This document shows, in pieces, positions 21,881 through 39,521 of a DNA stretch of 55,444 bases. The stretch spans positions 1 to 55,444 of the forward strand of contig CALWDM010000008.1 of NCBI GenBank assembly GCA_944376695.1. Reading direction: 5' to 3'. The translations under genes and the position numbers were made by a program. Below the pieces are notes generated by a model. The model made no database searches, was not told the origin of the DNA, and worked only from the letters and a program-made list of their open reading frames with translations. The stretch comes from an uncultured Mediterraneibacter sp. (GTDB lineage Bacteria > Bacillota > Clostridia > Lachnospirales > Lachnospiraceae). Position 1 is the stretch's first letter; each line of letters starts with the position of its first letter.

Positions 21881-22969
21881 TCACTTTCCGATATATGCGC
21901 AGATCCGGTCACCCATCTCTTCTGTGCCGATCTGCTTCTTTCCTTCTGACATGATATCTATTGTCCGGTACCCGTCTCTGAGCACCATTTCCACTGCCTT
22001 CTCGACTGCATCCGCCTCCCGGTCAAGGTCAAAGGAGTACCGCAGCATCATTGCCGCTGACAGGATGGTCGCGATCGGGTTTGCGATCCCCTGGCCCGCG
22101 ATATCCGGGGCAGACCCGCCGCTGGGTTCGTACAGGCCGAACTTCGTGTCATTTAAGCTGGCGCTTGCGAGCATCCCGATGGATCCGGTCACCATGCTTG
22201 CCTCGTCTGATAAAATATCCCCGAACATATTCTCGGTCAGGATCACATCAAACTGTGCCGGATCCTTCACGAGCTGCATCGCACAGTTGTCGACCAGCAT
22301 GTGCTCCAGTGTGACTTCCGGGTACTGCGCTGACACTTCTTCCACGATTTTTCTCCACAGCCGGGAAGAGTCAAGGACATTCGCCTTGTCCACGCTGGTC
22401 ACCTTTTTCCTTCTCTTCATGGCGATGTCAAACCCCCGCTTTGCGATCCTGCGGATCTCGGTCTCGCTGTATGTAAGCTCATCCCTTGCGACAAGCGCTC
22501 CGTCCTCTTCCCGGGTGCTGCGCTTCCCGAAATAAAGCCCGCCGGTCAGCTCCCTCATGATCATCATGTCAAAGCCCCGGTCCGCGATCTCTTCTTTCAG
22601 GGGACACGCGCCCTTTAATTCTTCATAGAGCACTGCGGGCCTTAAGTTCGCGAACAGGTTCAGCCCTTTCCTGAGCTGTAAGAGCCCTGCCTCCGGCCTT
22701 TTGGACGGTTCCAGCTGATACCACGGGGAAGTCTTCGCGTCTCCGCCGATGGATCCCATCAGTACCGCATCGCTGGCTTTCGCCGCTTCCAGAGTCTCAT
22801 CTGTAAGGGGCACTCCGTTCACATCAATGGACGCCCCGCCCATGAGAAGCTGTATATAAGAAAGGGCATGTCCGTATACCTCTGCGACCCTGTCAAGGAC
22901 TTTCATTGCCTCATCCACGATCTCAGGGCCGATCCCATCCCCCTTTATCACTCCGATCTTCATTTCCAT
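21881..22969 (-). CDS. leuB: 3-isopropylmalate dehydrogenase
   Basis: The enzyme oxidises and decarboxylates 3-isopropylmalate with NAD in leucine synthesis. The 362-residue chain has [19 protein letters not shown], the substrate arginine region with [14 protein letters not shown], and the C-terminal [18 protein letters not shown]. It is the first gene of the leuB-ilvD-ilvB-serC-serA run and has a good promoter at 23007-23035. leuA, leuC and leuD are not here, so the pathway is split over several loci. No T-box or leader peptide is visible in the short upstream region. ATG at 22969 or 22963 are both possible. Confidence 0.95.
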
Positions 22970-23068: not shown

Positions 23069-23107
23069 AATATCAAAGGGACCCCGCAGCAAACGCTGCG
23101 GAGTCCC
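23069..23107 (-). terminator. Terminator of the giant surface protein gene
   Basis: GGGACCCCGCAGC (23078-23090) and GCTGCGGAGTCCC (23095-23107) form a 13-pair stem with one imperfect position and an AAAC loop. On the minus strand the stem is followed by TTTGATATTTT. It lies 17 bases after the giant gene. Confidence 0.8.
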
Positions 23108-23124: not shown

Positions 23125-26100
23125 TTATCTGTTCGATCCTCTTCTCTTTCTTCTGGTGCAGAATACCGCCCCGATCAGGAATGCCGAGCCCGCCATAAGA
23201 GCCGCGCTGCGTCCGGCGTCCATCCCGTCTCCGGTCGCAGCCGCCGGCTTTGCCGCCTCGTAGCGGTTGATAAACTCAGCTGCCTCCGTGCCGGAGCTGT
23301 CTGTACCATCTTTTGCATAGACTGTGCTGCTTACTTTAAGCGCGCCGTTTTCATCTGTTACAGTGACTGTCAGAGTCCACTGGCTGCCATCGTAGGTATA
23401 TCCTGTCCCGCTGCCCTTGTCCTCGGTGATCAGGAACCGGTATACACCGGCTTTACTGAATGTGATCTCTCCGAAGTTCGTGCTTCCCGCGCCTGTGACC
23501 TTTGCCTTGTCGGAACGGATCACCACGCCTTCGCTGTTCTTCCCATCTGCCTTAAGGCTGAAATAGAAAGTCCTGTCATCCGGAGTCTCGTCACCCGTAA
23601 TTTTCTTGACCACCTGCGGCGCATAGGATACTTCCGCAGGATCATACCTGTTCTCGAATACCGCTGCAGCCGCGCCTTCCACGATCTCGCCTGCCCGTGC
23701 ATAGACCACATCGCCTATCTCAAGGATCCCGTTGTTATCCTCCACATTTACAGTGACTGTCCATACATTTCCGTCATAGCTGTATCCAGGCGCTCCGCCG
23801 TTCTCCTCGCGGATCTCGAAACTGTAAACTCCCGACTGGTCGAAAAGGATCTCCCCAAATCCAACGCTGCCGCTTCCGGTCACTTCCGCGGCCGCCGGTT
23901 CAGGCATCCGGGCGCCTTCCGGATTGTCCTCTGACGCACTCATTGTGAATGTGAACGTCTGGTCTTTTCCTTCCGGCACATCTCCGGTCACTTTCTTTAC
24001 CACTGCCGGCGCAAAAGGCACTTCCTTTGCGTCATAAGCATTCGTAAACACTGCGTGTTCCTGATCCTCCGTCCCATCTTCCCTGCTGTAGACAATGGAT
24101 GTCTTCGTAAGGATATGGTCCACATCGTCAACCTGTACGGTCAGTTTCCACGGCGTCTTATCATACGTATATCCATACTGCCCGCCATCCGTCTCGCGGA
24201 TCGTGAATGTATAAATACCGGCTTTGCGGAAGGTGATCTCTCCGAAACTTGTCGGGCCTTCCCCGGTCACCGTAACCTCTGTCTCTGTCAGTTCTACGCC
24301 TTCATACTCTTCATCCGGCTCCAGGGTAAAGGTGAACTCTTTATCCGTTGTCACCCGGTCTCCTGTGACATCTTTTTCCACCTGCGGTGTATATTTTGTC
24401 TCAACCGTGCTGTAGCTGTTCACAAAGGATACGCCCTCAGCTCCTTCCACGGTGCTGCCGCCCTTCCCGTAAACGACCTGATCGACCGTAAGCACGCTCT
24501 CCACGTCTTTCACTGTCACCTTCACGTTCCAGATACTTTCGTCATAGCTGTATCCGGCTTTGCCTCCGTCCTCCTCTGTCACTACAAAGGTGTATACCCC
24601 GGCTTCCTCAAAGGTAACCGCGTCAAATGCAGAATTACCGCTGCCCCTGATCTCGATCTCCGTATCATCCGGAAGGACTGCCTTCACAGGATCGCTGTCC
24701 TTCTGCTCTAACCGGAACTTAAATGTCTGATCTCTTCCAAGCGGTACGTCGCCTGTCACAGTCTTTTCTACCGGTATCACCAGTTCTTCTGAATCCGTGA
24801 TTGCATAGGTGTTTGTAAATACTGCATTTTCCGGATCTGTCACCGCCGGGTCCGCGGCATCCTGGGTATAGGTCCCCACTGCGCTGAGCACGCTGTCGTG
24901 ATCGGTCACCTTCACCGTAAGGGTCCATGTATGCTTGTCATAAGTGTAACCATTCTCTTTGTCCGAGTCGTCCTCGCTGATATGGAACCGATATACGCCC
25001 GGTTTATAGAAGCTGATGTCGCTGAAGCTTCCGGTATCTTCTCCGGTCACCTTAGCTGTAAGTGCTCCATCGCCTGCTTCCAGGGAAGCGCCTCCCGCCT
25101 CATTCTCCTCGTCAGCGGTAAGGAGGAACGTAAATTCCTTCTTATTATCCTGAGGATATTTCGCGCCGGTTATGTCTTTCTCAACCTGAGGTGTGATGCT
25201 GTCCGGCGCAGCTGTATAAGTATTTGTAAATTCAGCTTCCGTCCCGCCCGGCGTATTCGTCTCACTCTGGACATAGGAAACGCTGTTTACTACAAGCTGT
25301 CCCTTCGCCTCATCACCTGTTCCGGATACACTGTCCCCGACCACAACTGTCAGCGTCCAGTGCTTCTCATCATAACCATATCCCGGAAGCTTTCCATCCT
25401 TCTCGCTGATGTCAAAGGTATATGTGCCTGTTTTGGTGAATCCGATCTCGTCAAATATGCCTTCGCCCGCTCCGGATACTGTCACTGACCTGTTCTCCGG
25501 CATGTTCACTCCATCTGCTGTACCTGTATAAGTGATATTGAATGTAAAGTCTTTCTCCTTCGGTACAAAAATGCTGTCGATCGTTTTCTTTACGCGCGGG
25601 CTGTATACCGCCGGTGCGGATGCATAGCTGTTGCTGAATTCCGCCTGGTCTGCGTTCGCCGGCGGGTTTGCGCTGCTGGTGTAAGTGATCCCTCCTTCTT
25701 TCGGGATCTCCAGTTTACCACCATTGTCGTTGACTTTCACAGTCAGCGTCCACGTTGTTCCGTCATAAGTAAATCCCTGATATCCGGCGGTGTCTGCCTT
25801 TTCCGTGATCTGGAAGTAGTAGGTTCCGGCTTTGGTAAACTCAAGTTCATTAAAGGACAGGTCCTCGATCGTATCCGGTCCCGTCATATCCGGTGTGGAT
25901 ACTGTCTGAGTACCGACCGGTGTATCTTCAGCCGCTGCCACAACTCCGCCTTCCGGACTTTCGTCCGTCCTGATCTGCGTTAATTCAAACGTGAAATCCA
26001 CTTTCACCGGCAGGCTGCTTCCTGAGTCCACTGTCAGTGTTTTTTTCACCTTCGGTGTATAGAACGCATTCTCCGGATCGTAATGATTCGTAAATACTGC

Positions 26101-29100
26101 GGAATCCTCTGCGCTGCTGTTCAGATACTTCACTTTCGTTACTTCCAGTGTGCCGTCATTGTCAGCGACCGTAACCTGTACGTCTCTCGACGCCGCAGTG
26201 TCATATACATATCCGGGTATTCCGGTCTGCTCTTCCGTGATCGTGAATACATAGGTTCCTGCCGCGTTGAATGTGATCGGGGCAAATGTTCCGTCATTGG
26301 ATGCCTGATCTTTTCCAACATGGACCGTCAGCTCTTTATTCTCCGGAAGAACAGCTCCGCCTTCTGGTGCTGCGCTCTTCTGAGCCAGCGTAAATTTAAA
26401 TTCCGCATCAGCCGGTCTTTCATTCCCGTCTGCCTGTTTGGTCACCTTAAGCGGCTGCTTTGCCGGCTCTGGTGTGTAGGTATTGCGGAACACTGCCTGC
26501 TCTGTCTCTGTTTCATCCGGATCACTGCTGTCGTATACCGGATCTGCACAGTCTAAGTTACCCTTTCCGTCATCTGTCACAACGACTTTGAATGTCCATG
26601 ACGCTGCATCATAGTGGATCTTATCATTTCCGCTCTGCGTCGTCTCAGTGATCCTGAACTCATAGGTTCCCTTCTGGCTGAAGGTGATTGTTCCAAATGG
26701 CACTGTCTGCTCACCCGTCGCCTGACCCTCCTTCGTATAAGTCACTGAAGCTGTCTCATTGGCAAATTCCACTTCCGGTCCTGAAGTCTTCTTGATCTTA
26801 AATTCAAATGTCTCATCCTTCACCACCGGGCTGCCGCTCAGGATCTTCTTCACTGCCGGCGCGTAAGCAGTCGGCGTCGGCGTGTAGGTATTCTCAAATG
26901 CCGCTTCGCCGTCCGGGTATTCCACATCCGGAACAAGCTTGCCTTTTCCGTTATCCGTTACCGTAACTTTGACAGTAACCGTATCCCGGTCATAAGTCAT
27001 GCCGTCTTCCTGGCGTCCCGCCGGGAGCGGACCGCCATCGGCGTCAGTCTCCTGGATCGTATAGGTAAAGGTTCTGTCTGCATCGTCCAGCGCATAGGAG
27101 ATCGGCTCGAAATCAATCTCCACCGCCTGCCCATCCTTGCCGCCTGAAGCTGTACCTTTGGAAACGACTTTCCCATCTTCATCGGTCACTGCGAAGTAGA
27201 ATGTCTCATCCTCCGCCATGTCTCTTCCGGTAAGTGTCTTCGTTCCCTCCGGCGTCCAGGTGCCGGCCGCATTGTAAATGTTAGTAATCGTCGTCTCAGC
27301 TGCGTTTTCGGACCATTCTCCGTCATCCGCATACCGGTAGCTTGCTTTTAATCCTTTGTCCGTCCACTCGGTCTTAACGATGACCCTGTGATCCGCCGGA
27401 TCATAAGTGACGCCGTCTTTTACATTGCTGACCGCATCTTTTGGGACAGCCTCGCTGATATAGTAGGTAAAGGTGCCGACGCCTTCCAGGGTGATCTCAT
27501 CAAAAGTAACCCTGCCCTCGGCATGATTCGTCTTTATATCCAATATAGCTCCTTCTTCATCTTTCAGATAGAAGGTAAACGCTCCCTCTTCCACGTCGAG
27601 CAGTTCGCCGTCTGCGCTTCCTTTTTTCAGGACTTTCTCTGCGCCGAGCTGGATATCAACGGTCCTCTTATTGGTCACGGTCACCTGGTCTGTTGAAGTC
27701 GTCTTCTTCTCATTCGGTACACCCAGCACCCATGCCGGATCGCCGTCCTCCGTTGTGTATGAAGTGATGTTCGTTCCCGTGCCGCCTGTCGCCGCCGCGT
27801 CATCCTTAATGTAGCCGGTCGATGCGGACGTCTCCACGATGACGTATTTCTGATACCACCGCAGATTTTCTACTGCTGCTTTACCGTCTTCACCAGTGGT
27901 CACAGTATCCACCAGATTTGCATCTGTCAGCTCATACTCCGTCGCATCTTCAGCAAACGGCCCGTAAATCTTAAATTCAGCTCCTTCTACTGCAGGCTGG
28001 TCCCCGTCGGCCGCTTTCTTCGTGATCTCAAGATCCCGGAGCGGGATAAGACCGATGTCCTTCGTGTTGTCAAAGGTCACATCTGCATCCGTGGGCCACA
28101 GATAGAACAGTTCGGAAGCACTTGTGTTACCTCCCGCTGTAAAGTTACTGTCAGTCCTCTCATTGTCCGGAATATCATCCGGATGGTAGGATCTGCCGTT
28201 TGTCGGCCCTTCTGCTGTGACTTCATACTTTCCGGCCATGTTTTCATTCGGAAGCGTCACTGCCAGCATGTACGCCGCCGGGTCTGTTCCTTTCAGGGCC
28301 TCTACATTTAATGTCTTTCCGTCCGCGCCATACGCATCTTCATCGGAAGCATCATCCCGCAGCGCAGCCGGATCCAGGCCGTCAAATACGTAGTTGGCAT
28401 TCTGACGCCACTTAGTATCTTTTTTCTGGTCATAGGTTCCTGCCTGGTCATATCTGTTGCCTTCTTTGTGATATCTGTACAGGCGGATCTCAACCTCGTT
28501 CAGCATATCCTGGATCATGCTGTTGCCCGAGAAATGGTCGATGGTTTCATCCTCCTGGCGCTGACCGTCCGCGTTCTTGTCGATCCAGATATGTCCGCCT
28601 ACTTTTACCGGCTCCTGGAGGATCGTGTTGGATACTACATTGGATCCGAGCACTTTACCGACCGGCACAGGCGTCGGATTCGACGTCGTGTACTGGCTGT
28701 AGTGGCACGCGAAGCTGTTGACCGCGTTATCGTACGCGTTATCCTGCAGTTCTTCTTTGCTGAAATCTTCCACCTCCGCAGTGTACTCTACTACAACGCT
28801 CTGGTAAGCATCTCCGGTCCCCTGACTCTTCTGCCCCACAAGGCTGATCTCGCCACTAAAGGCTACCGCAAACGCTCTCACATCAGTATCCGTTTCTCCC
28901 TCAGCCGGGGCAGTCGTGCTCCATCCATCCGGCATTGACTGCGCATCAAATTTCAGGGTCATTGCGTCATTATATACCCCCTGGTAATCCGCTTCGCTGT
29001 CCAGTTCGCCTCTGTAATAGTAGACCTTGTAATCCGTATTTTCCGCGAGCGGCACTGTCTCTCCGTCCAGGGAGATCTTGCTGACAGATTCAATGGAACC

Positions 29101-32100
29101 GTAATACAGCCCCCACTTACTGTCTCTTAAAGCCCCCGTTCCGGTCCTGTAATCATCCGGTTTCGGAAGGATATCCACCATGGAGATTCCTGTCATCGCA
29201 TTGTTGGACGATGTGTTAGTCACTGTCAGGCGATAGCGCATCCACCCGCGATTGCTTACCGTGGAGAGCTGGTCAGATGTGAATCCAGTATCCTGGTTCC
29301 GGTCTCCGTAGCCGCTCTTGACAAGGGCGAGATCCGTGGATGTCGTCCAGTTTGCATTTGCAGCAGCAGAGATATAACCATAGTTTTCCCTGCCGGATTC
29401 TTCCAGGATCTTCCTGAAGGTATCTCTTCTGGTTTCCTCCATTGACGTGAGCACATTGTCCATGCTCTCTGCCCAGTCTCCGTTCTCATTTCTGAATGAC
29501 GCTGCCTGCGGGTTCCCATCGCTCTGGGCTCCGCGTATCTCGCTGCCCGCAAGGACGTAGTTCTGGATACTTGTGCCGTAGCCCGCGGCTGCTTCTCCTA
29601 CCTCCACCGTTATTTTAATGGTCACATACTCGCCTGGCTTCAGGAAGCCGTCCAGGTTCACGTACACTGCCGTTTCCCCGTCTGCCCTTCCGCTCGATGA
29701 GCTGCTGAAAGCCAGAGTCTTGGAATCCGTCTCGATCACTTTTTCCGAGCCGCTCACCCAGGTCGTTCCCTGCGGGAGCAGGTCCACGATGAACGGATCT
29801 TCCATGGCAGCGGCCGCATCTTCTTCATTCTTAAGCGTGATGCTGTATGTCATATTGCTGTTGAGTGCCACACTCTGCTGGTCAGCCGTCTTCTCTACTG
29901 TGACGACTGCCGCGTCCTGCTGGCTGAATTCCACATCTGCCGCCGCGTTGTCCGGGATTGATTTCTGAACTTCCCGGGTGCCGTCTGTTTTCCACGGCGT
30001 GTATTTCACTTCCGCGGATACGCTGTTGCGGATCCGGTCGATGGACTGTACGTCCTCGCCGCCTGCCTGCTGGTCTGCTCTTACCTTTACTGTGATATCT
30101 CCAGGCGTAAAGTCTGTTCCGAGATCATAACCTGTTCCGGCTAAAGCATCGGCATGATAGCTGACCGTAAAGGTTTTTGCCTTTGCATTCTCTATCTCCG
30201 GCGCTGCTTCCGCCAGTGTAAAGGTCTGTGCGGATACGCTGACATCCTTTTCCACTGTTCCAAGCGGATTTCCGTCAAATCCGCAGAAGGTGACTTCCGC
30301 CGTGATCGGCGCTGTCCCTTCCGCCAGATAACCGGACACATCATGCTCAGCCTGTCCGACGACTACCTCGTTGATGGAATATTTTTCATCCAGATAGCTT
30401 TCCTCCATCGGAATATCCGTATTGTCTGTCCCGTGGTATGCGGTCAGTCCTGTATCCGTAAGTGTAAAGGAATCCAGCGGATATGTATTCCCCACGGTGG
30501 GCCGGATCGTGTATTCCAGATCTGCTCCCTGGGTAAAGAGACTTTTCTGTGTCTGCTCCTTCACTGTCTTCGCGAGATCCAGAGTCACTTTTCCTTCGAT
30601 GTTCCTGAGCGTGACAACAGTCTTCCCTGTCGCACCTGCCGGGATCGTCACTTTCCTGTACCATTCCACATTCCTGTTATCCCTGATCTGGGATACGCTG
30701 GAATCAGTCTCAACTACCAGATAAGTCTTCCCTGCCAGGAACTTTGCCCCCATCTCCGTCCATGTGCTGCTATTTGCATAATTATAATATTCTGTCTTAC
30801 CCTCTTCATTCTCAGATGATCCAGGCTGCTCCACCCATATATCATTCAGGACCGGTGTTCCTTCTGTCAGCAGAGCCTCAACAAACTCATCTGTCACAAC
30901 CGCGTCTTCCCCGATCTCATACACAGATACCGTCGCTGTTGGCTGTGTCTCTGCATACGGATCCAGCGCATCCTGCTTGCGGATCTCCATCTCTACGTAC
31001 GGGATGTTGTATGCATTGTATTGATACTCAGTTCCTGCCGTCAGAGGCTGTCCGTCATTGATCAAATGGAGAGTCACTGTCTGCCCGTTGACCACGGCAG
31101 TTTCTGTTGCCGCAGCTTCAGCATCCTCAGCTGCTCCCTCAGCCCAGATCCCCTGGAGCCCCTTATATCCTTCCGGCGCCGCAGGCTCTGCAACTGCATA
31201 AGTCCTGCCGCCCACGACGGTAAAGCGGACTTTTCCGTCCTTGTCTGTGATCCCGCCCGCGCTTTCGATCCAGCTTCCACCGCTCTTTTCGTAGAGCCTC
31301 AGAGTAACACCGCTCATGACGTCATCCTCTGTCGGATTTCCTTCCCTGACGTTTCCGTATTTTACAAGGTCAACATAAGCGCCTCTGTAGTTCGGGAAGA
31401 TGTAGTTTTCAAGCATTGTTGCATTGTCTTTCGCCCACTCTTCCTGCCATTCCGAAGCTGTGATCTTCTGCCCCGGAACAAGCTCCGCCTTTATAGAAAG
31501 GGCTTCCTCCTTCGGATAACCTTCCGGCGCGGTCTTTTCAAAGATGTAGAATGTATGCGCCTCTGTGCCTTCCAGCGGGATCCGCGCGGTGTAAACACCG
31601 TCTTTCCCGCTGAAAGTGATGCCGCTGATCGGTTCATCCTTATCCGGATCTGGCACTCCGCCCGTTCCGTCATAAATATTGAAGTCCGCGCCCGACAGAG
31701 CGGAGCCGTCTTCTCCGTCCACTTTGCGGATCGACAGCTCTGCACAGAGGTATGTATTCTCCGCTGTGACCGTCAGATCGTCATCCGTATCCGGGACCTC
31801 GATCTCATAATATCCTTCACCGTCAGCCGGCATCGGGATTTCCTGCCCGTCCTTCATGGCGGTCAGCTGATATCCTGCCGGTATGTCTGTCTCTCGCAGA
31901 TAATAGATCCCGCCCTGGCTCAGTCCGGTAAATTCAACGCTTCCGTCCGCACCGTCCGTACATGTAACGGTATCCTTTTTGATCTCTTTTTTGTCTTTAT
32001 CATACAACCGGAACGTAAACTTACTGCTTCCGGTCACTGTCAGGTCTCCCGCAAGAATGTCTTTTATGACTGTCAGCTTCACCTGCTTCGCATCCGCAAA

Positions 32101-35100
32101 GGTAAGGGTCTCTTCTCCATACTCCGGATCCGTATTTTTAATTACTGGTGTATCTCCTACCATCACGGTACCGATAGCCATGCTGCCGGTCAAAGCCACA
32201 TACCTCGGAGCTGTATCCGTGATATCATACCCTTCCGGGGCAGCTGCTTCGGTGATCTTGTAGACGCCCGGTTTCCGGCCTGTCAGGATGACCTGCCCGT
32301 TACCATCTGTAACCGCCGCATCATCAACCAGATCCCAGCCGCTGTCAGTCAGTGTCACATCACCGCTGAACACCGGGAATCTCTGGTATTCGATCTTAAA
32401 TTTGGCGCCCTCCAGTTCCTCCCCGGTATCCTTATCGACCTTCGTGATCGCAAGAGCCTGTGTCTCAGGGTTCTGTACCGTAAGAGTCATACCTTCAGAG
32501 ATCTTTATGCCGTAGTCGTTAATGTCTGCCTTGTCAGTGACAGTCACACTGTAGCTGCCATCCTCATTCCGGATCTGTTGTGTCTTATATCCGAAGAAGA
32601 TGCCGTCTCCATTTACCAGATCATTTAAGTTTCCATAATCTGTCTGATAATTACTGTTATCGTAAGTTTCTTTAAAGTACTCTTTCAGGTACTCATTCGT
32701 ATGTCCGTCTGCCGCTGACTCTGTCAGTTTGTAAGTCCCGTTTCCGATCCCGGTCAGGTGTGCCTTACCGTCGGTTCCTGTCTTCGCAGAACTGTTTCCT
32801 GACTGGCCTGTAAGAGTGAACGTCACGCCTGAAAGCGCGTCCTCTTCCATCCCCTTTTTCATGATATCCAGGGTCAGCTTCTTCGGGTTGTACATGCTGA
32901 TATCCACATTGTCCGCGGTCACGTCAAAATAGTATGCCGCCTGGCTGTGGGCAGCATCGCCCGTATAATCTGAGCCATTCCCCTGGCTTTCCAGATCGTA
33001 GATGTTTTCATACTCTGCATGCGGGGTCACTTCCACGATCCTGTACTGGCCGATGTCAAGTCCTCTCGGGAATGCAAAATATCCATTCCCGTCCGTCTTA
33101 AAGAGACCGTCCGCCTTCGGCCCGTCGTATGTACTGTATGCATATGTGGTCCATTTGCCGTCCACCAGGCGTTCCAGGCGCATAGTCACATTCGCCAGCG
33201 GTACCCGGTCATCCTGTACTCCTCTGGAATAGTACGCGTCCAGTTCTTCGGAAGTCATTCCCAGATTTGCGCCTTCTACCGGCTCGTACCCATATTTTGT
33301 CACTGTGACGGCGAAATGATCCACCGGCCAGTTCACCAGGCGGTACTGCTGCCGGGATGCTTCCTCCGGCGCGTTTGTAACAGTGATCGGATCATAACCG
33401 CCTTTTTCGTTCTCCCCGGTCGCATAGAGTCCCCAGACGATACCCTCCTGATCCTCTGCCAGTTTTACCTCTTCTTCTTTATCTTTTACATAGAATACAT
33501 CGTTGAACGACTCTGTCGTTTTGGTCTTTCCTTCTTCTTCTGCTGCTTCATAGCGGAAGAACATATACATATAATACGTTGTTCCGGATCTCGTATATCC
33601 GTCCGGCGCGTCTGTCTCCACCAGCGCCGCCCGGGCGTAGCTGTTGCCGTCTTCATCTGTCTGGAAGATGCGTTCATACATAGCTTCATCTTCCACATAG
33701 TTTGAGGTCAGCGCTGTCCATGAGAACGCCCTGGAAGAAGCCAGAGCGCTGACAGGCGCTGGCGCCGATGTTGTTCCGTCCGGCGCGCTCAGGTCATTGT
33801 CAAGACCTGTGGTCAGCGTATCGATCTTTTCCACGAGGGTTCCGTCCTCTGCCGCCAGATACAGGTCAAAAGACGCATTGCCCAGCGGAGTATATGTATG
33901 GACTTTTTCTCCATCTTTTGTGCAGCTTCCCGCCCACTTTGCGATCCTCACTGTGGAGAAACGCTCGCCTTCTCCGCCGTACGAAGGATCGTTTTGAACG
34001 GAAACCTCTGTCAGCACATTATCCTTATATTCCGCATAATTCGTACAGGCTGCGTCTTCATATGTGCTGGCATTTGTATAGGACGTACCGCTGCGTCTTA
34101 TCAGTGTGATCGCGTTCTCAGGCTTAAGTTTGCCGCCGATCCCCGGGGTTATCTCCACAAGCCAGTACACTACATTGTCGGCAGATTTTAAGATGTCCGT
34201 TGCAAAATATCCGTCCTGCCGGATTCCATCGGCGTTATAAAGCGTACCGCTCGTGTAGCTGCCGACCAGAGTCGTATCGGGATCACTGCTGTCAAATGCA
34301 AGCGCTGTTCCGTCATCCGGGCCCACGATCTGCCGGTACAGTTCGAACTCCGCATTATTGAGTTCACGCCGTTGACCTTCGTCTTCTTTTCCATCTGCCC
34401 CTATCGCAAATTTCTCAACCCTGAGCTGAGTCCAGTTCTCCACATTGGTCAGCCTGCCTGTCTGTTCCGACTCCGGCTTGTTCTCGTCCGTGTTAGCGGA
34501 TTTTGTCACGATATTGTACTTATTGATATCCGCTTTCGGGATCGTTGCAGGGCACGCGCCATCCGCTGTTTTCTGCAGATATTCTTTTTTACTGGCCGGT
34601 TCCAGATACTGATACGCCTCGTCAGCAGGGATGGACACCTCCACTGCCACATACTCATCCTTCTGTGCCAGTCCGGTGAACACCACTTCTCCGACAGAGT
34701 TTGTTGTCTGGATGCCTTCAAACACATATTCCTCCCCGTCCAGGCGGTACAGCGCGATCTCTGTGCCGGGCAGGAGATATTCTTTGTGTGTAAACTGATT
34801 CTCCCAGATATTGTAGAAAACCTTGCTGACACGCAGGGAAGTCTCCGGCTGGTTGATGATCTCCAGGTTATTGCCTTCGGTGTCTGTCGTCACCTGCCCG
34901 CCCGGGGAAAGCCGGACTTCCAATTCGTCTTCACTTGCCGTATATCCGTTGGGAGCGGTTGTCTCCTTGATGATATATGTGATCTTCTCTCCGTTTTCAT
35001 CATAGATTGGAAGCTCTTTAAATAACACATCTCCCGTGTCCTTCATGCTTACTGCTGTCTGTACAGGAGCAGACTCTCCCTCCCGATAAATGGAGATCAC

Positions 35101-38100
35101 CGCACCCGGAAGGGCTGCTTTTTTTCCTCCCAATGTCATCCTGTATTTTTTGACAAGCACTTCGCCCGTATCGGAATAATTTACGATCGTGCCAAGCTCC
35201 CTGACTTCCTCCTGATCTTCCACTGTATAAGGCCCGAAATAATAGGAACCGTCTGCGTATACGTGGTCATAATCCTCATACAGCTCCTCATATCCGGACG
35301 GATCCAGGACTCCTGCCGGCGCTGTTTCTTTGAGATAATACTCGCCTGCCGGGAGCTGGAGCTGGCTTCCTGAGCTCAGCTTCAGCGGCTGTCCGTCATA
35401 GCCCTGTACCGGCGTAAATGTCCCGCCTTCTTCTGCATAAACTTCAAAGGCCACTCCTGATGTTACAGTTTCCTTACCGTCTGATGTTTTGATTTTTTTC
35501 TCGATAGTGATCTTCGGATCCGGACGGTTTTTCAGCGTTACAGCCTGTGTTTCTGTATCGGTATCGACTGTTTTGATCCCTTCCAGGTTGATGATCAGGG
35601 CATCTGCATCTGTGACATTCTCATATCCCTGAGGGGTCACAGACTCTTCCACTAGATACTTTTTCCCGGGATCCAGTTTTGTAAAAGCTCCTGCAGACGG
35701 TATCTCGGTGCTGTCAATGACCACATCGCCCTTATGTCCGGCTGCGTCCTCGTCATATTCATAAATCGCATATTGCGCGCCTTCTTCGAAGTTGCCGGTG
35801 TAAGAGTTTACCTTCTTAACGGCAACCGGGACTTTCTGTTCCACATTATCAATGGTGATGGACTGCTGAAGCTGGATGTCATCGCCTTCTGTAAAATTGA
35901 ACGGCCCGTACGCGGTGAGCTCCTGTTCTCCCACTTTGATGGTCGTTTTCTTCGCACGGTTTGTTCCTTCAAATCCTTCTGTTTTCCCTGAGAGGGCATA
36001 CCCGCCTGCCGTAGAAGTCTCCACAAGATAATAATATCTCGGCGTCTCACCTGTAGTGCGGGGCAGATCTGTGATAGAGACTGTTTCCCCGGCTGCGACA
36101 GTATAGGAGTCCGTATTAAATTTCTCATACTCATGGCTGTCTTTTCCTTCTTTGTAATACAGGTCAAAGGATGCGGTAAGGTCAGCCGAACTGCTGACAG
36201 CCATCTTGCCGGAGTCTGCATTCCAGAACTGCTTTGTCAGATCAATGCTTCCGTTCCGCCAGTTCTCCATCTCGATCAGAACCGCCTCATTTGATTCGTT
36301 TCCTATATCATCTTCCAGAGTAAACGTGTCTGAGTAAAGGTACCTGTTCCCGGACGCATCCGTCGCTGTCTCGCCGGCCCCGTGCCATCCCTCAGGCAGT
36401 TTCTCTGCAAAGCGGTAGGTATAGACATTTCCGTTCTCGTCATATGCCGGAAGGATTCTTGTGATTGTTCCGTCCTGTCCCAGACTTATGTCAGACTCTA
36501 CAGTCTCTATGGACTCCGGGTTATCCCAGCTTCCCCCGGAAGTTATTCTCTGCAAGGTAAAACACTTTGCAAAAAGTCCAAAATTTGACTGATCTACATC
36601 CACTGACTCTCCCGTATCAACGTCAAGCACCTTTTTCTGGAGTCTGATATTTGCATTGTTGTAAAGATTCACACTTTTCACTGACTCTTTCGCCTTTTCG
36701 GCTGTCAGGTTGATTGTGTAAATCTCATCATCCCTGATATATCCGTTGGGAGCTTCTATCTCTTTTACATAATAGGTGCCGTAAGGAAGGCGGCCAAATG
36801 TCAGATTTCCCTGATTGTCCGTTTTATCATGCGTGATCAGATCTGTACACTGTTCATCACGATACAGGCCGAAATCGGCTCCCTCCAGGTCGCTTTCCAC
36901 ACCATTTACTTTTCCTTTTTTGTCAATGCTGATGCTCCCCAGAGTCTCTCTGTTGTAAAAATCAGCTGTCCCGCTGCCTTCTTCCGCGATAGTGACTTCC
37001 TTATCCTCTGCATTCTTATCTGAACTCTCATCAGCAGTCACCTTCACCGTACTGGACGGAAGAGGCCTCTCCTCTGGTGCCAGCTCTGATACCAAATATG
37101 TCCCGGCATCCAGATATACCTCGATCGCCCCGTCCTTCCACACGGAATCTGCCCCTGACGTATCCGCCGGGTCGATGGTCACAAGACCGTCTGCAACGCT
37201 CAGAGGGGTATAAGTACCATCGGAATTCTTCTTATATAGTGTGGGCGCGGTTCCGTTTTTGTCGGTCACTTTGAATGTGACCGGTCCGCTGACCGGATCG
37301 CCTGCCGGGAAATTCTCCGCGGTATAGAGGCTGGACGTCCCATTCGCATAGTTCACGATATATTTACTGATCGTAAGCTTTGCAGGCGGTATCACCTCGT
37401 TCACTTCCTGAGATGCTTCTGAATGGCTTGTTTTAACCTCGTCGATCCCTTTCAGGCGATAAGAGATATCCGCGCTGTTGTTTACTGTCAGCGCACTCTG
37501 ATCCGCATCGCTGTATTTAGCGATAAATCTTTCCGCAGGATATTCCACATCCACGGTATATGTGGAATAATACGGCGCGTCTTCATCAACGCCGCTCACA
37601 TCGTGACTGCCGCATGTCTCCATCGGAAGCGCATAAGTCCCGTCAGAGGATGCCGGAACCACTTCCCCGTCCGCTGTTTTCACTGTGATCTTTGTATAAT
37701 CGACCGGACTTCCCTGCCGGTCATTGACTGTCGGAACTTCCGTAAGCGACACGTCCCCGTCAAAGGGCACACGCCCCGGCCTTCCGTATGTCTGCTGATT
37801 CGTCACGATCTGTCCGTCCGTACCCTTCAGGCCGACGGCCAGGTTATAGTGGACTGTCACAGCCGACCTGTCCTCTGATACAGTAAATCCATCGGCTGTC
37901 TTCCGGACCAGCCACTCATCCTCCGTGGCTGATGTCACGACCGGCGCTTCACTTTCTGCAGCGACCTGCTTTGTAACATTCTTCAGATCATCCGGCCAGT
38001 CCTCCTCTGCTCCATTAATGTCAAACTTCGTCTCGATCTTCAGGAAGTCCCCAGTCTCCCCAAAGTTAAATACATGGTTTGCCTCCAGCTTTCCGTTATC

Positions 38101-39030
38101 CCTGATCTTCACATTGACAAGGAAGCTGCCGGCTCCGTCTGACGATGCATTGATGCTGTCGTTAAGGAGAAAGGTATATACATTATCCTCATCAGGTCCT
38201 TCAAGCTTCACATTATCCAGAGGCGCAGCCGCATCCATTGAAAGGCTCATGCCTTTCGGAAGCCGAAACAGGATCTTTGTCTCATTATATGTATCGAACA
38301 TCGGCTCCGCCTGATCTCCGTAATTATACAAAGCTGCTGCCTGCAGCTGATAGTAGATCAGCATGGTGACCGTATCCCCTGCCATAAAGCTGGTGTCCTC
38401 TTCCTCAAATCGTACAGAGACATTTGCTGTATCCTGAGTACCGTTTTCTCCATAGTACATCTCTGCGGTTTCTCTCAGGGTAAGTCGCCTCGCAACCATC
38501 AGACTGTCTGAATACACTGTCTGATCTCCCAGTATCGCCCGCAGGCGGTATTCATACCCGCCGTTTTCTTCTGAATATATGAAAGAGTAGTTTGCGGAAC
38601 CAGCCCCATCGATATCCTGCCAGTTCCCATCCTTTGTCTTATACTGCCACTGAAGGACAGCTCCTTCCTCTGACACGGCGCCCTTCAGCATGACCCGGTC
38701 GCCAATGAAGGCAGACTCTCTGTTAGAAGATATGGAAACTGTCAGCGCTTCTTCCCCGGCAGGAAGCGTGTCCGCCCCGCCTTCCGGCAGCCTGTCCCCG
38801 GTTAGCGTCTCCGCCGTCATTGCAGTGTCAGCCGGCAGGCCCCCGCTGTCATCTGTAACACGGTCGCCTGCCGTCCCGTCCTTCAGTACAGCCGGCTTGT
38901 CCGTATCCTCCTGCTGATCCTCTGTGAGTCTGAACGTCCCTCCCATAGAGGATACAGACTGGCTGCTCAGGATCATCACCACTGCCAGCGCGAAAGCCAC
39001 AGTCCTTGTCCAGAGATTCCTCTTGTCCAT
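23125..39030 (-). CDS. Giant multidomain surface adhesin with Cna-B/SpaA-like and Spy0128-like isopeptide modules
   Basis: The predicted 5,301-residue protein is secreted and probably wall-anchored. Residues 1-31 are a signal peptide (WTRTVAFALAVVMILSSQSV). An Ig-like module at about 85-180 follows, then an isopeptide-type adhesin region to about 560. Next come some 16 prealbumin-like Cna-B/SpaA modules (about 560-2950), recognised by repeated ETxAPxGY-like strands. Two DUF11-like modules (about 3037 and 3233) and an SdrD-B-like module (about 3472, GGHIWIDKNADGQRQ) come next. Eleven tandem Spy0128/FctA-like modules occupy about 3780-5260. The C-terminus has PAAATGD where LPxTG is expected, a hydrophobic helix and RRKRRGSNR. 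The start at 39030 has GGGAGGGAG 4 bases upstream. No sortase or pilin partner is adjacent. Attachment to host or other cells is inference from architecture. Confidence 0.88.
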   Translation of the reverse strand: MDKRNLWTRTVAFALAVVMILSSQSVSSMGGTFRLTEDQQEDTDKPAVLKDGTAGDRVTDDSGGLPADTAMTAETLTGDRLPEGGADTLPAGEEALTVSISSNRESAFIGDRVMLKGAVSEEGAVLQWQYKTKDGNWQDIDGAGSANYSFIYSEENGGYEYRLRAILGDQTVYSDSLMVARRLTLRETAEMYYGENGTQDTANVSVRFEEEDTSFMAGDTVTMLIYYQLQAAALYNYGDQAEPMFDTYNETKILFRLPKGMSLSMDAAAPLDNVKLEGPDEDNVYTFLLNDSINASSDGAGSFLVNVKIRDNGKLEANHVFNFGETGDFLKIETKFDINGAEEDWPDDLKNVTKQVAAESEAPVVTSATEDEWLVRKTADGFTVSEDRSAVTVHYNLAVGLKGTDGQIVTNQQTYGRPGRVPFDGDVSLTEVPTVNDRQGSPVDYTKITVKTADGEVVPASSDGTYALPMETCGSHDVSGVDEDAPYYSTYTVDVEYPAERFIAKYSDADQSALTVNNSADISYRLKGIDEVKTSHSEASQEVNEVIPPAKLTISKYIVNYANGTSSLYTAENFPAGDPVSGPVTFKVTDKNGTAPTLYKKNSDGTYTPLSVADGLVTIDPADTSGADSVWKDGAIEVYLDAGTYLVSELAPEERPLPSSTVKVTADESSDKNAEDKEVTIAEEGSGTADFYNRETLGSISIDKKGKVNGVESDLEGADFGLYRDEQCTDLITHDKTDNQGNLTFGRLPYGTYYVKEIEAPNGYIRDDEIYTINLTAEKAKESVKSVNLYNNANIRLQKKVLDVDTGESVDVDQSNFGLFAKCFTLQRITSGGSWDNPESIETVESDISLGQDGTITRILPAYDENGNVYTYRFAEKLPEGWHGAGETATDASGNRYLYSDTFTLEDDIGNESNEAVLIEMENWRNGSIDLTKQFWNADSGKMAVSSSADLTASFDLYYKEGKDSHEYEKFNTDSYTVAAGETVSITDLPRTTGETPRYYYLVETSTAGGYALSGKTEGFEGTNRAKKTTIKVGEQELTAYGPFNFTEGDDIQLQQSITIDNVEQKVPVAVKKVNSYTGNFEEGAQYAIYEYDEDAAGHKGDVVIDSTEIPSAGAFTKLDPGKKYLVEESVTPQGYENVTDADALIINLEGIKTVDTDTETQAVTLKNRPDPKITIEKKIKTSDGKETVTSGVAFEVYAEEGGTFTPVQGYDGQPLKLSSGSQLQLPAGEYYLKETAPAGVLDPSGYEELYEDYDHVYADGSYYFGPYTVEDQEEVRELGTIVNYSDTGEVLVKKYRMTLGGKKAALPGAVISIYREGESAPVQTAVSMKDTGDVLFKELPIYDENGEKITYIIKETTAPNGYTASEDELEVRLSPGGQVTTDTEGNNLEIINQPETSLRVSKVFYNIWENQFTHKEYLLPGTEIALYRLDGEEYVFEGIQTTNSVGEVVFTGLAQKDEYVAVEVSIPADEAYQYLEPASKKEYLQKTADGACPATIPKADINKYNIVTKSANTDENKPESEQTGRLTNVENWTQLRVEKFAIGADGKEDEGQRRELNNAEFELYRQIVGPDDGTALAFDSSDPDTTLVGSYTSGTLYNADGIRQDGYFATDILKSADNVVYWLVEITPGIGGKLKPENAITLIRRSGTSYTNASTYEDAACTNYAEYKDNVLTEVSVQNDPSYGGEGERFSTVRIAKWAGSCTKDGEKVHTYTPLGNASFDLYLAAEDGTLVEKIDTLTTGLDNDLSAPDGTTSAPAPVSALASSRAFSWTALTSNYVEDEAMYERIFQTDEDGNSYARAALVETDAPDGYTRSGTTYYMYMFFRYEAAEEEGKTKTTESFNDVFYVKDKEEEVKLAEDQEGIVWGLYATGENEKGGYDPITVTNAPEEASRQQYRLVNWPVDHFAVTVTKYGYEPVEGANLGMTSEELDAYYSRGVQDDRVPLANVTMRLERLVDGKWTTYAYSTYDGPKADGLFKTDGNGYFAFPRGLDIGQYRIVEVTPHAEYENIYDLESQGNGSDYTGDAAHSQAAYYFDVTADNVDISMYNPKKLTLDIMKKGMEEDALSGVTFTLTGQSGNSSAKTGTDGKAHLTGIGNGTYKLTESAADGHTNEYLKEYFKETYDNSNYQTDYGNLNDLVNGDGIFFGYKTQQIRNEDGSYSVTVTDKADINDYGIKISEGMTLTVQNPETQALAITKVDKDTGEELEGAKFKIEYQRFPVFSGDVTLTDSGWDLVDDAAVTDGNGQVILTGRKPGVYKITEAAAPEGYDITDTAPRYVALTGSMAIGTVMVGDTPVIKNTDPEYGEETLTFADAKQVKLTVIKDILAGDLTVTGSSKFTFRLYDKDKKEIKKDTVTCTDGADGSVEFTGLSQGGIYYLRETDIPAGYQLTAMKDGQEIPMPADGEGYYEIEVPDTDDDLTVTAENTYLCAELSIRKVDGEDGSALSGADFNIYDGTGGVPDPDKDEPISGITFSGKDGVYTARIPLEGTEAHTFYIFEKTAPEGYPKEEALSIKAELVPGQKITASEWQEEWAKDNATMLENYIFPNYRGAYVDLVKYGNVREGNPTEDDVMSGVTLRLYEKSGGSWIESAGGITDKDGKVRFTVVGGRTYAVAEPAAPEGYKGLQGIWAEGAAEDAEAAATETAVVNGQTVTLHLINDGQPLTAGTEYQYNAYNIPYVEMEIRKQDALDPYAETQPTATVSVYEIGEDAVVTDEFVEALLTEGTPVLNDIWVEQPGSSENEEGKTEYYNYANSSTWTEMGAKFLAGKTYLVVETDSSVSQIRDNRNVEWYRKVTIPAGATGKTVVTLRNIEGKVTLDLAKTVKEQTQKSLFTQGADLEYTIRPTVGNTYPLDSFTLTDTGLTAYHGTDNTDIPMEESYLDEKYSINEVVVGQAEHDVSGYLAEGTAPITAEVTFCGFDGNPLGTVEKDVSVSAQTFTLAEAAPEIENAKAKTFTVSYHADALAGTGYDLGTDFTPGDITVKVRADQQAGGEDVQSIDRIRNSVSAEVKYTPWKTDGTREVQKSIPDNAAADVEFSQQDAAVVTVEKTADQQSVALNSNMTYSITLKNEEDAAAAMEDPFIVDLLPQGTTWVSGSEKVIETDSKTLAFSSSSSGRADGETAVYVNLDGFLKPGEYVTIKITVEVGEAAAGYGTSIQNYVLAGSEIRGAQSDGNPQAASFRNENGDWAESMDNVLTSMEETRRDTFRKILEESGRENYGYISAAANANWTTSTDLALVKSGYGDRNQDTGFTSDQLSTVSNRGWMRYRLTVTNTSSNNAMTGISMVDILPKPDDYRTGTGALRDSKWGLYYGSIESVSKISLDGETVPLAENTDYKVYYYRGELDSEADYQGVYNDAMTLKFDAQSMPDGWSTTAPAEGETDTDVRAFAVAFSGEISLVGQKSQGTGDAYQSVVVEYTAEVEDFSKEELQDNAYDNAVNSFACHYSQYTTSNPTPVPVGKVLGSNVVSNTILQEPVKVGGHIWIDKNADGQRQEDETIDHFSGNSMIQDMLNEVEIRLYRYHKEGNRYDQAGTYDQKKDTKWRQNANYVFDGLDPAALRDDASDEDAYGADGKTLNVEALKGTDPAAYMLAVTLPNENMAGKYEVTAEGPTNGRSYHPDDIPDNERTDSNFTAGGNTSASELFYLWPTDADVTFDNTKDIGLIPLRDLEITKKAADGDQPAVEGAEFKIYGPFAEDATEYELTDANLVDTVTTGEDGKAAVENLRWYQKYVIVETSASTGYIKDDAAATGGTGTNITSYTTEDGDPAWVLGVPNEKKTTSTDQVTVTNKRTVDIQLGAEKVLKKGSADGELLDVEEGAFTFYLKDEEGAILDIKTNHAEGRVTFDEITLEGVGTFTYYISEAVPKDAVSNVKDGVTYDPADHRVIVKTEWTDKGLKASYRYADDGEWSENAAETTITNIYNAAGTWTPEGTKTLTGRDMAEDETFYFAVTDEDGKVVSKGTASGGKDGQAVEIDFEPISYALDDADRTFTYTIQETDADGGPLPAGRQEDGMTYDRDTVTVKVTVTDNGKGKLVPDVEYPDGEAAFENTYTPTPTAYAPAVKKILSGSPVVKDETFEFKIKKTSGPEVEFANETASVTYTKEGQATGEQTVPFGTITFSQKGTYEFRITETTQSGNDKIHYDAASWTFKVVVTDDGKGNLDCADPVYDSSDPDETETEQAVFRNTYTPEPAKQPLKVTKQADGNERPADAEFKFTLAQKSAAPEGGAVLPENKELTVHVGKDQASNDGTFAPITFNAAGTYVFTITEEQTGIPGYVYDTAASRDVQVTVADNDGTLEVTKVKYLNSSAEDSAVFTNHYDPENAFYTPKVKKTLTVDSGSSLPVKVDFTFELTQIRTDESPEGGVVAAAEDTPVGTQTVSTPDMTGPDTIEDLSFNELEFTKAGTYYFQITEKADTAGYQGFTYDGTTWTLTVKVNDNGGKLEIPKEGGITYTSSANPPANADQAEFSNSYASAPAVYSPRVKKTIDSIFVPKEKDFTFNITYTGTADGVNMPENRSVTVSGAGEGIFDEIGFTKTGTYTFDISEKDGKLPGYGYDEKHWTLTVVVGDSVSGTGDEAKGQLVVNSVSYVQSETNTPGGTEAEFTNTYTAAPDSITPQVEKDITGAKYPQDNKKEFTFLLTADEENEAGGASLEAGDGALTAKVTGEDTGSFSDISFYKPGVYRFHISEDDSDKENGYTYDKHTWTLTVKVTDHDSVLSAVGTYTQDAADPAVTDPENAVFTNTYAITDSEELVIPVEKTVTGDVPLGRDQTFKFRLEQKDSDPVKAVLPDDTEIEIRGSGNSAFDAVTFEEAGVYTFVVTEEDGGKAGYSYDESIWNVKVTVKDVESVLTVDQVVYGKGGSTVEGAEGVSFVNSYSTVETKYTPQVEKDVTGDRVTTDKEFTFTLEPDEEYEGVELTETEVTVTGEGPTSFGEITFRKAGIYTFTIRETDGGQYGYTYDKTPWKLTVQVDDVDHILTKTSIVYSREDGTEDQEHAVFTNAYDAKEVPFAPAVVKKVTGDVPEGKDQTFTFTMSASEDNPEGARMPEPAAAEVTGSGSVGFGEILFDQSGVYSFEIREENGGAPGYSYDGNVWTVTVNVEDNNGILEIGDVVYARAGEIVEGAAAAVFENRYDPAEVSYAPQVVKKITGDETPDDRTFYFSLKADGKNSEGVVIRSDKAKVTGAGSTNFGEITFSKAGVYRFLITEDKGSGTGYTYDGSQWTLTVTVTDENGALKVSSTVYAKDGTDSSGTEAAEFINRYEAAKPAAATGDGMDAGRSAALMAGSAFLIGAVFCTRRKRRGSNR
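23250..27680 (-). repeat. Eleven tandem Spy0128/FctA-like isopeptide modules within the giant gene
   Basis: The C-terminal 1,480 residues divide into 11 units of about 130 residues. Each has a lysine in the first strand (for example PQVEKDVTG), a central glutamate in FxIxE, a GYxYDxxxWxxTVxV core, and an asparagine in FxNxY at the end. Every unit keeps the Lys-Glu-Asn set that makes the intramolecular isopeptide bond in streptococcal pilins. The units are diverged in sequence, so this is a protein-level and not a DNA-level tandem repeat. Confidence 0.85.
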
Positions 39031-39191: not shown

Positions 39192-39220
39192 AAAAAAAAC
39201 CGGAAGGATTTCCTTCCGGT
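39192..39220 (-). terminator. Terminator after yajC
   Basis: ACCGGAAGG (39199-39207) and CCTTCCGGT (39212-39220) form a perfect 9-bp stem with a 4-base loop. On the minus strand eight T follow. It closes the L,D-transpeptidase-tgt-yajC unit and separates it from the giant gene. Confidence 0.88.
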
Positions 39221-39242: not shown

Positions 39243-39521
39243 TCATTCAGCATTCGGTTTCTCAATCTGAGCGATGGCCGCCTTCTGCATCGGGATACGG
39301 CAGTTTTTATTGTTTCCGAATTCCACGATCACATCATCATCTGTGATATCAATAATCACCCCGTAGAATCCGCTCGTTGTCAGAGCTGTATCACCGACTT
39401 CCATAGATGCCAGCATTGCCTGAATTCTCTTCTGCTCCTTCTTCTGGGGACGCATAAGCAAAAGCCACATTACACCGAACATCACCGCTATCCAGACGAT
39501 CATCATCAATAATTCACCCAT
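39243..39521 (-). CDS. yajC: Preprotein translocase subunit YajC
   Basis: The 92-residue protein has one N-terminal membrane helix (MMIVWIAVMFGVMWLLLM) followed by RPQKKEQKRIQAML and the small beta domain MEVGDTALTTSGFYGVIIDI, the usual YajC layout. It is an accessory part of the Sec translocase with SecDF. It follows tgt by 57 bases, a neighbour order conserved in many bacteria. AGGAGG lies 9 bases before the ATG. Confidence 0.93.
   Translation of the reverse strand: MGELLMMIVWIAVMFGVMWLLLMRPQKKEQKRIQAMLASMEVGDTALTTSGFYGVIIDITDDDVIVEFGNNKNCRIPMQKAAIAQIEKPNAE

Follow-up and report, generated by a model that had tools for sequence, protein, structure and literature searches.

A probable giant fibrillar adhesin of Mediterraneibacter with two blocks of isopeptide-type modules, one of them varying in copy number among relatives

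Contig CALWDM010000008.1 of an uncultured Mediterraneibacter sp. (assembly GCA_944376695.1) carries a gene for a single protein of 5,301 amino acids that is, in our assessment, probably a giant fibrillar adhesin, with an internally cross-linked stalk and a binding head. The window analysed here is the whole of this contig (55,444 nucleotides), and comes from a genome of 2.67 Mb in 103 contigs that is 94% complete. The frame has no internal stop and its product has a mass of 577 kDa and a pI of 4.3; a GGGAGG stretch, recognized by eye, lies ahead of the ATG, and the plus strand has many stops. A preliminary description of this DNA, made from the letters alone, had the coordinates, the uninterrupted frame and the length right, and gave no strand. 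The gene and the parts of its product are:

23125..39030, minus strand: giant coding sequence, 5,301 aa, ATG at 39030 and stop at 23125
38941..39030, minus strand: signal peptide region, aa 1-30, MDKRNLWTRTVAFALAVVMILSSQSVSS.., from the sequence and its place among the most hydrophobic windows (no signal-peptide predictor)
38485..38940, minus strand: N-terminal variable region, aa 31-182, species-dependent by sequence comparison; aa 95-182 without Pfam match
37378..38484, minus strand: head, aa 183-551, the presumed binding part, rich in beta structure and interpreted as a tandem of two Ig-like domains (AlphaFold2, Foldseek)
30589..37377, minus strand: 17 CnaB/SpaA-like segments, aa 552-2814 (segmentation and Pfam)
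28609..30588, minus strand: three DUF11 (CLIPPER)-like segments with Lys/Asp/Asn, aa 2815-3474 (Pfam DUF11 for the middle one only; the three residues are kept in Candidatus Mediterraneibacter quadrami)
28033..28608, minus strand: SdrD-B-like segment, aa 3475-3666 (DKNADGQRQEDE motif; weak Pfam SdrD_B match)
27661..28032, minus strand: 18th CnaB/SpaA-like segment, aa 3667-3790 (Pfam SpaA, 2.4e-10)
23260..27666, minus strand: 11 FctA (Spy0128-like) modules, aa 3789-5257 (Pfam and alignment)
23125..23259, minus strand: sorting-signal-like tail, aa 5258-5301, ..AATGD, hydrophobic helix, RRKRR and stop (sequence)

Pfam was run on three overlapping pieces of the protein, and the CnaB and DUF11-like segments were also scanned singly. 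The pieces gave 11 FctA stretches (E 1.3e-187), SpaA in eight stretches, one Cna_B and one DUF11, in agreement with the two blocks of isopeptide-type modules, and the 11 Spy0128/FctA-like modules in the second, that had been proposed before. Pairwise identity among these FctA modules is only 24-49% (mean 34%), and the best matches of one of them among solved structures are streptococcal T-antigen pilins and Spy0128. The CnaB array is likewise present, with 18 modules instead of the about 16 first counted; when scanned singly, nine of the 18 segments, whose borders were set by eye at the Lys motifs, passed the Pfam SpaA cut-off and six more matched at E <= 0.1. The DUF11-like modules are three and not two, all with the Lys/Asp/Asn pattern and one of them over the Pfam cut-off. 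As for the single SdrD-B-like module, its assignment is mainly based on DKNADGQRQEDE, which we take to be a calcium-type motif, and the Pfam match is weak (E 0.061).

The residues expected to form isopeptide bonds are strongly conserved. Lys, Glu and Asn are three of the 11 invariant columns in the alignment of the 11 FctA modules, the triad being complete in all of them, as previously noted, and they stay invariant in 34 of 34 modules once the 19 from M. quadrami and the four from a further genome, G065, are added. For the CnaB modules, the comparison partner was the M. quadrami protein, which is 47% identical over aa 184-4032; with triad positions named by hand and non-aligned residues scored as misses, Lys was kept in 18 of 18 modules, Glu in 16 of 18 and Asn in 16 of 18, against background conservation of these residues over aa 552-3790 of 42%, 33.5% and 52%, respectively (binomial 1.6e-7, 1.8e-6 and 1.1e-3). 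The Lys, Asp and Asn of the three DUF11-like segments were kept in nine of nine cases. SpaA, Cna_B, FctA and DUF11, the latter renamed CLIPPER, are all named as isopeptide families in PMC12617251. From family membership and triad conservation, up to about 32 modules (18 CnaB-like, three CLIPPER-like and 11 FctA) are candidates for bond formation. Since an Ig-like module is 4-5 nm long, about 35 modules would make a stalk of roughly 150 nm, which is likelier than the hundreds of nanometres of the preliminary description.

Both ends of the protein have the features of an exported and sorted chain. Its 12 most hydrophobic 15-residue windows all fall within aa 6-27, where a signal peptide had been noted, or within aa 5275-5292, in the tail. 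The motif preceding the C-terminal helix is AATGD in the giant protein, AKTGD in the G065 homologue and VQTGD in that of M. quadrami, and the combination of motif, hydrophobic helix, positive tail and a sortase in the genome is that of a sortase substrate. The head was modelled with AlphaFold2 from four sequences (mean pLDDT 83.5, superseding a poor model of 600 aa from three sequences with a pLDDT of 57.7) and appears beta-rich, in what we read as two tandem Ig-like domains. Among the best 50 of 1,434 Foldseek matches were antigen I/II C-domains, ClfB, Bbp, Cnm, CNA and SdrG (E about 1e-9 to 2e-7, TM 0.2-0.29); the model resembles an MSCRAMM head, albeit with weak TM values and with integrins matching equally well or better. 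Of the features of fibrillar adhesins, a long single chain, a signal peptide and tandem stalk domains are found in the giant protein, whose surface location is presumed and whose head is a putative adhesive domain.

A scan of named genomes with a profile of the head retrieved three matches, in an uncultured Mediterraneibacter (77%), in M. quadrami (42%) and in Candidatus Limivivens merdigallinarum (32%), and the head was present in three of 58 genomes of the genus and in two of 299 drawn from the family, the source genome being included in both counts. In L. merdigallinarum the contig ends inside the gene (L047:2959-4647); its N-terminal region seems, by eye, to be replaced by an SH3-type repeat. 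The M. quadrami homologue (L059:161-19816) is a single frame of 6,552 aa, collinear with the giant protein, for which profiles identify 18 CnaB and 19 FctA modules. In G065, the 5' and 3' parts of a homologous gene lie on two contigs and both agree with the module order; 12 CnaB modules are visible there owing to the contig break, together with four FctA modules that pair with modules 1, 2, 5 and 6 of the window protein. The order of modules, which the preliminary description did not know to have been reported, is therefore not a one-off.

The FctA copies thus number four in G065, 11 in the window protein and 19 in M. quadrami. In a module tree, FctA 1, 2, 10 and 11 of the window protein pair with FctA 1, 2, 18 and 19 of M. 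quadrami, with support of 0.92, 0.99, 0.87 and a weak 0.65. The inner modules of M. quadrami are largely recent, alternating repeats: FctA 8-13, 16 and 17 form two alternating groups that are 75-85% identical inside each, modules 7 and 15 are 81% identical, and module 14 is more loosely related (up to 72%). From this pairing and the alternating groups, it follows that the stalk has lengthened and shortened inside the FctA block.

The giant gene is surrounded by housekeeping genes, with yajC, tgt and a YkuD L,D-transpeptidase gene on one side, and leuB, ilvD and an acetolactate synthase gene on the other. As the preliminary description stated, there is no sortase, pilin or partner gene among the neighbours scanned, and the gene has its own terminator. 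The transpeptidase, which contains PG_binding_4 domains, is encoded at 40759-42513 of the window, upstream of the giant gene and beyond tgt and yajC, in one of the stretches most divergent between sister genomes. Cargo of a phage or plasmid was also considered and discarded, as the head had no match at E 1e-5 in 72,556 plasmid and 50,697 phage records. The flanking features, and the only sortase found in the window genome, are:

39243..39521, minus strand: yajC, upstream flank (neighbour-gene scan)
39199..39220, minus strand: terminator of yajC, which bounds the inserted unit upstream (hairpin/terminator scan)
23078..23107, minus strand: terminator-type hairpin 3' of the giant gene, -31.9 kcal/mol for a 56-nt stretch, z -4.0
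21881..22969, minus strand: leuB, downstream flank (neighbour-gene scan)
L050:6004-7457: sortase gene, beside that of an SPKTG-tailed protein, in a polysaccharide (capsule-like) cluster by eye

Several observations weigh against a wall-anchored adhesin with a cross-linked stalk. The sorting motif is AATGD and not LPXTG, and the one sortase found in the 94% complete genome adjoins the SPKTG-tailed protein; in M. gnavus, a capsule-cluster sortase serves capsule display and another one anchors SPXTG proteins (PMC13121745). Sortase matches numbered four in G065 and three (one weak and partial) in G059, both of them relatives that have the adhesin, one each in G071 and G014, and six in G042, and it is possible that a contig with a further sortase is missing from the window assembly. 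A promoter scan of the minus strand ahead of the gene gave no sigma-70-like site. The head has no adhesive Pfam family over the cut-off and no meaningful match in a sequence search of the PDB (best E 0.043), and integrin alpha chains, among the same best 50 Foldseek matches, reached comparable E-values and mostly higher TM (0.34-0.45); given the lack of an adhesive domain and these weak structural matches (TM 0.2-0.45), the term adhesin is therefore derived from the architecture. In the stalk, CnaB modules 1, 3 and 17 did not match the SpaA model in single scans, and two of the three DUF11-like segments failed the Pfam cut-off. Finally, in M. quadrami the expected Asn is aligned with Asp in CnaB modules 13 and 15, and the Glu is unaligned in modules 1 (a gap) and 5 (shifted by one residue); a Lys-Glu-Asp triad is tabulated for SpaA in PMC12617251.

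The preliminary description had itself named mis-assembly of several shorter genes among the things that could overturn it, and a genome in 103 contigs, with repeats that are prone to collapse, could have led an assembler to fuse genes or repeats. This explanation is largely refuted and we consider it hardly credible, because the FctA modules are too dissimilar from each other (24-49%), M. quadrami has the whole protein in a single 19.7-kb frame in a separate record, G065 carries both protein ends in the same module order on either side of its contig break, and all the parts compared evolve under purifying selection. Indeed, dN/dS against G065 was 0.18 for the head, 0.21 for the CnaB part, 0.18 for the stretch from the DUF11-like to the SdrD-B segments, 0.18 for FctA 1 and 0.26 for FctA 5-6, as compared to 0.03 for leuB. 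These same values for five parts of the protein, with the intact frame and the conserved triads, speak against a decaying or selfish large gene without present function; the patchy presence of the head in the genus would fit such a gene, which nonetheless appears to us very improbable.

The module families themselves suggest another possibility, a sortase-polymerised pilin or pilus tip acting as one subunit of a heteropolymer, because FctA and SpaA are families of pilin modules and the best structural matches of the FctA module are pilins. We regard this as improbable: neither a pilin operon nor a dedicated sortase, the hallmarks of sortase-assembled pili, was found among the scanned neighbours, FctA was found in the window genome only in the giant gene, the sole sortase found lies elsewhere in its polysaccharide-like cluster, and a chain of 5,301 aa by itself makes a full stalk. 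More plausible, although still doubtful, is an interbacterial role in aggregation or biofilm, or as a spacer of coat or capsule, in place of adhesion to the host, with which the lack of a known host-binding family in the head is compatible. Against it, the alternative gene at the same chromosomal site in sister species (see below) encodes a GH95 glycosidase, of a family linked to host glycans. Published work is found on both sides: PMC10619420 discusses a role of giant Ig-repeat adhesins in building biofilms, whereas RadA, a CnaB adhesin of R. gnavus, from the same genus, is described as binding mucin (PMC8615915).

The fibrillar-adhesin reading accommodates these data in the following way. 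The signal peptide would direct export, and the modules would fold outside the cell, up to about 32 of them welding themselves by Lys-Asn bonds with the help of Glu or Asp. A sortase would then attach the C-terminal xxTGD signal to the wall, and a stiff stalk of roughly 150 nm would keep the two-domain, Ig-like head off the cell. The wall-proximal FctA block would set the reach, its copy number evolving (4, 11, 19), while the order of the distal CnaB block would be constant. Bond formation, anchoring and the binding of a ligand, whether from the host or from microbes, are what we infer; a first guess for this ligand may be immunoglobulin or mucin-type glycans, solely because RadA binds mucins and immunoglobulins.

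Comparison of the leuB-yajC locus across relatives, which had been proposed in the preliminary description, showed that the site is shared with a different protein. Among the 58 genomes of the genus, leuB is present in 58 and tgt in 57 (without one row from G005, a second copy with 65% identity), and the two share a contig in 54. Between leuB and tgt there are 16,612 bp in the window, 5,851-6,151 bp in G042, G071 and G014, and 532-1,375 bp in the remaining 50 of the 54, too little for the adhesin or a GH95 gene; these empty sites were called by gap length, with the yajC-leuB sequence inspected in four of the 50 and ORFs in two more. The inserted unit of the window is bounded by the yajC terminator and by a sequence ahead of leuB, the latter conserved, as judged by eye, across four insert-free genomes. 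An insertion between housekeeping genes had therefore been correctly described, although calling it lone understated the case, because three sister species have at this site frames of 1,679-1,755 aa ending in VQTGD, VQSGD and VRTGD:

L024:1805-7069, L025:1737-6773 and L026:1902-7166, minus strand: GH95 glycosidases with sorting-type tails at the yajC-leuB site (GH95 in all three; domain scan of L026)

The L026 protein has a GH95 catalytic domain (E 4e-129) plus F5/8C and FIVAR domains, and a search at E 1e-10 found no GH95 in the window genome, G065, G059, G062 or G010. The giant gene of M. quadrami is located elsewhere in its genome, and the yajC-leuB slot of that genome is short (615 bp). 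The dS of the head against G065 equals that of leuB (0.70 in both cases), which fits common descent at the yajC-leuB site.

Recombination between species at this site has good support where the GH95 tract is concerned. GH95, yajC and tgt are 95-99% identical between G071 and G042, as compared to 78-95% for the rest of the G071 contig, and the leuB and tgt trees conflict with good support, the window genome grouping with G071 at leuB, and G042 with G071 at tgt. Recombination may have swapped one surface protein for the other, in either direction. Identity between the window and G071 is 95.5% around leuB, 89% beyond 44 kb and 81% from yajC to aroC; that between the window and G042 is 93% at 8-20 kb and at 44-52 kb, and 83% from yajC to aroC. 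Import of a 20-kb segment with the giant gene into the window genome was considered and had to be cut back: G071 and G042 themselves diverge by 14-22% (78-86% identity) between the transpeptidase gene and aroC, so that here the drop reflects the genes concerned, and G065 is no closer to the window there (83%). Only the GH95-yajC-tgt tract common to G071 and G042 stands out. This in turn slightly reduced our confidence, never high, in a broader proposal that we now put forward only tentatively. According to it, the distal run of different CnaB modules retains its number (18) and order across two species that are only 47% identical, the wall-proximal FctA block is an adjustable spacer (4, 11 or 19 modules), and yajC-leuB is a surface slot that holds either the giant adhesin or a GH95 glycosidase, exchanged between species by homologous recombination as alternative ways to meet the mucus layer.

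Cross-linked giants have also been described in Mobiluncus, a genus that we take to belong to a different phylum from Mediterraneibacter. The adhesin of Mobiluncus mulieris, as described in PMC10619420, has 7,651 residues and, besides 18 ester modules, 33 isopeptide modules that were found with Spy0128. Both proteins are giants made of one chain, with a head at the N-terminus, a wall signal at the C-terminus and dozens of Ig-like modules, cross-linked in Mobiluncus and predicted to be so here, and the M. curtisii protein, which lacks 21 isopeptide modules, parallels the varying FctA count. However, isopeptide and ester modules are intermixed in the Mobiluncus protein and its head is thioester-like (PMC10619420), whereas most CnaB modules and the FctA modules of the giant protein are in separate blocks, and no ester or thioester Pfam family, as expected for TIE proteins, matched in the pieces scanned with Pfam. 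RadA, from Ruminococcus (Mediterraneibacter) gnavus E1, is a protein of 1,769 aa with 10 CnaB modules whose N-terminus binds mucins and immunoglobulins; by its description, it shares the genus, a signal peptide, an N-terminal Ig-like binding region, CnaB modules and a non-canonical sorting motif, and differs in the adjacent srtB, the LPQTP motif and the absence of an FctA block from its description (PMC8615915).

Fibrillar adhesins and CLIPPER (DUF11) proteins (PMC12617251 and PMC9210967) are also long, with tandem isopeptide domains, an adhesive N-terminus and a sorting C-terminus; the giant protein differs in combining families in a fixed block order and in a head without Pfam family. Periscope proteins, in turn, have stalks with variable repeat number, but these repeats are nearly the same in sequence and differ in number inside populations (PMC9704523), while the variation reported here is seen between species. 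The window protein was rejected as a member, its FctA repeats being too diverse (24-49%), although the inner repeats of M. quadrami, several of them 75-85% identical, are nearer to this kind.

FctA was found in 85 of 397 Lachnospiraceae genomes, the source genome included, and, among the matches listed, at least seven other FctA frames exceed 4,000 aa (4,164-5,632 aa, measured from stop to stop). Eleven FctA frames used as comparators (L041 and L042 covered in part only) comprise five with FctA only, three with one or two CnaB modules and three mixed ones (L034, L045 and L048); in none of them does a block of several CnaB modules precede an FctA block, as seen with a CnaB profile that was built from the giant protein and favours it and its close relatives. 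G002, from the same genus and without a head-profile match, has a 3,280-aa frame (L029:4723-14562) that contains about 12 FctA modules and has a VQTGD tail; a second FctA frame, of 652 aa, is close by. No paper on the giant protein or on giant Lachnospiraceae FctA proteins was found among the matches listed in a literature search without subscription journals and preprints. As FctA giants are common in the family and an adhesin of 7,651 residues has been published, the giant protein joins an already known kind; what is new is that its architecture of two blocks is conserved with an FctA spacer that varies, and that another surface protein takes its place at the site in sister species.

In all, a genus with a mucin binder gains a very large, well-supported isopeptide adhesin, which, with about 32 predicted isopeptide modules per chain, is also a source of protein-welding parts. 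Relatives with four, 11 and 19 spacer modules constitute a natural series for relating stalk length to reach. Likewise, the yajC-leuB site, occupied in a group of five related genomes by either the adhesin or a GH95 glycosidase, has the look of a locus at which species swap surface proteins.

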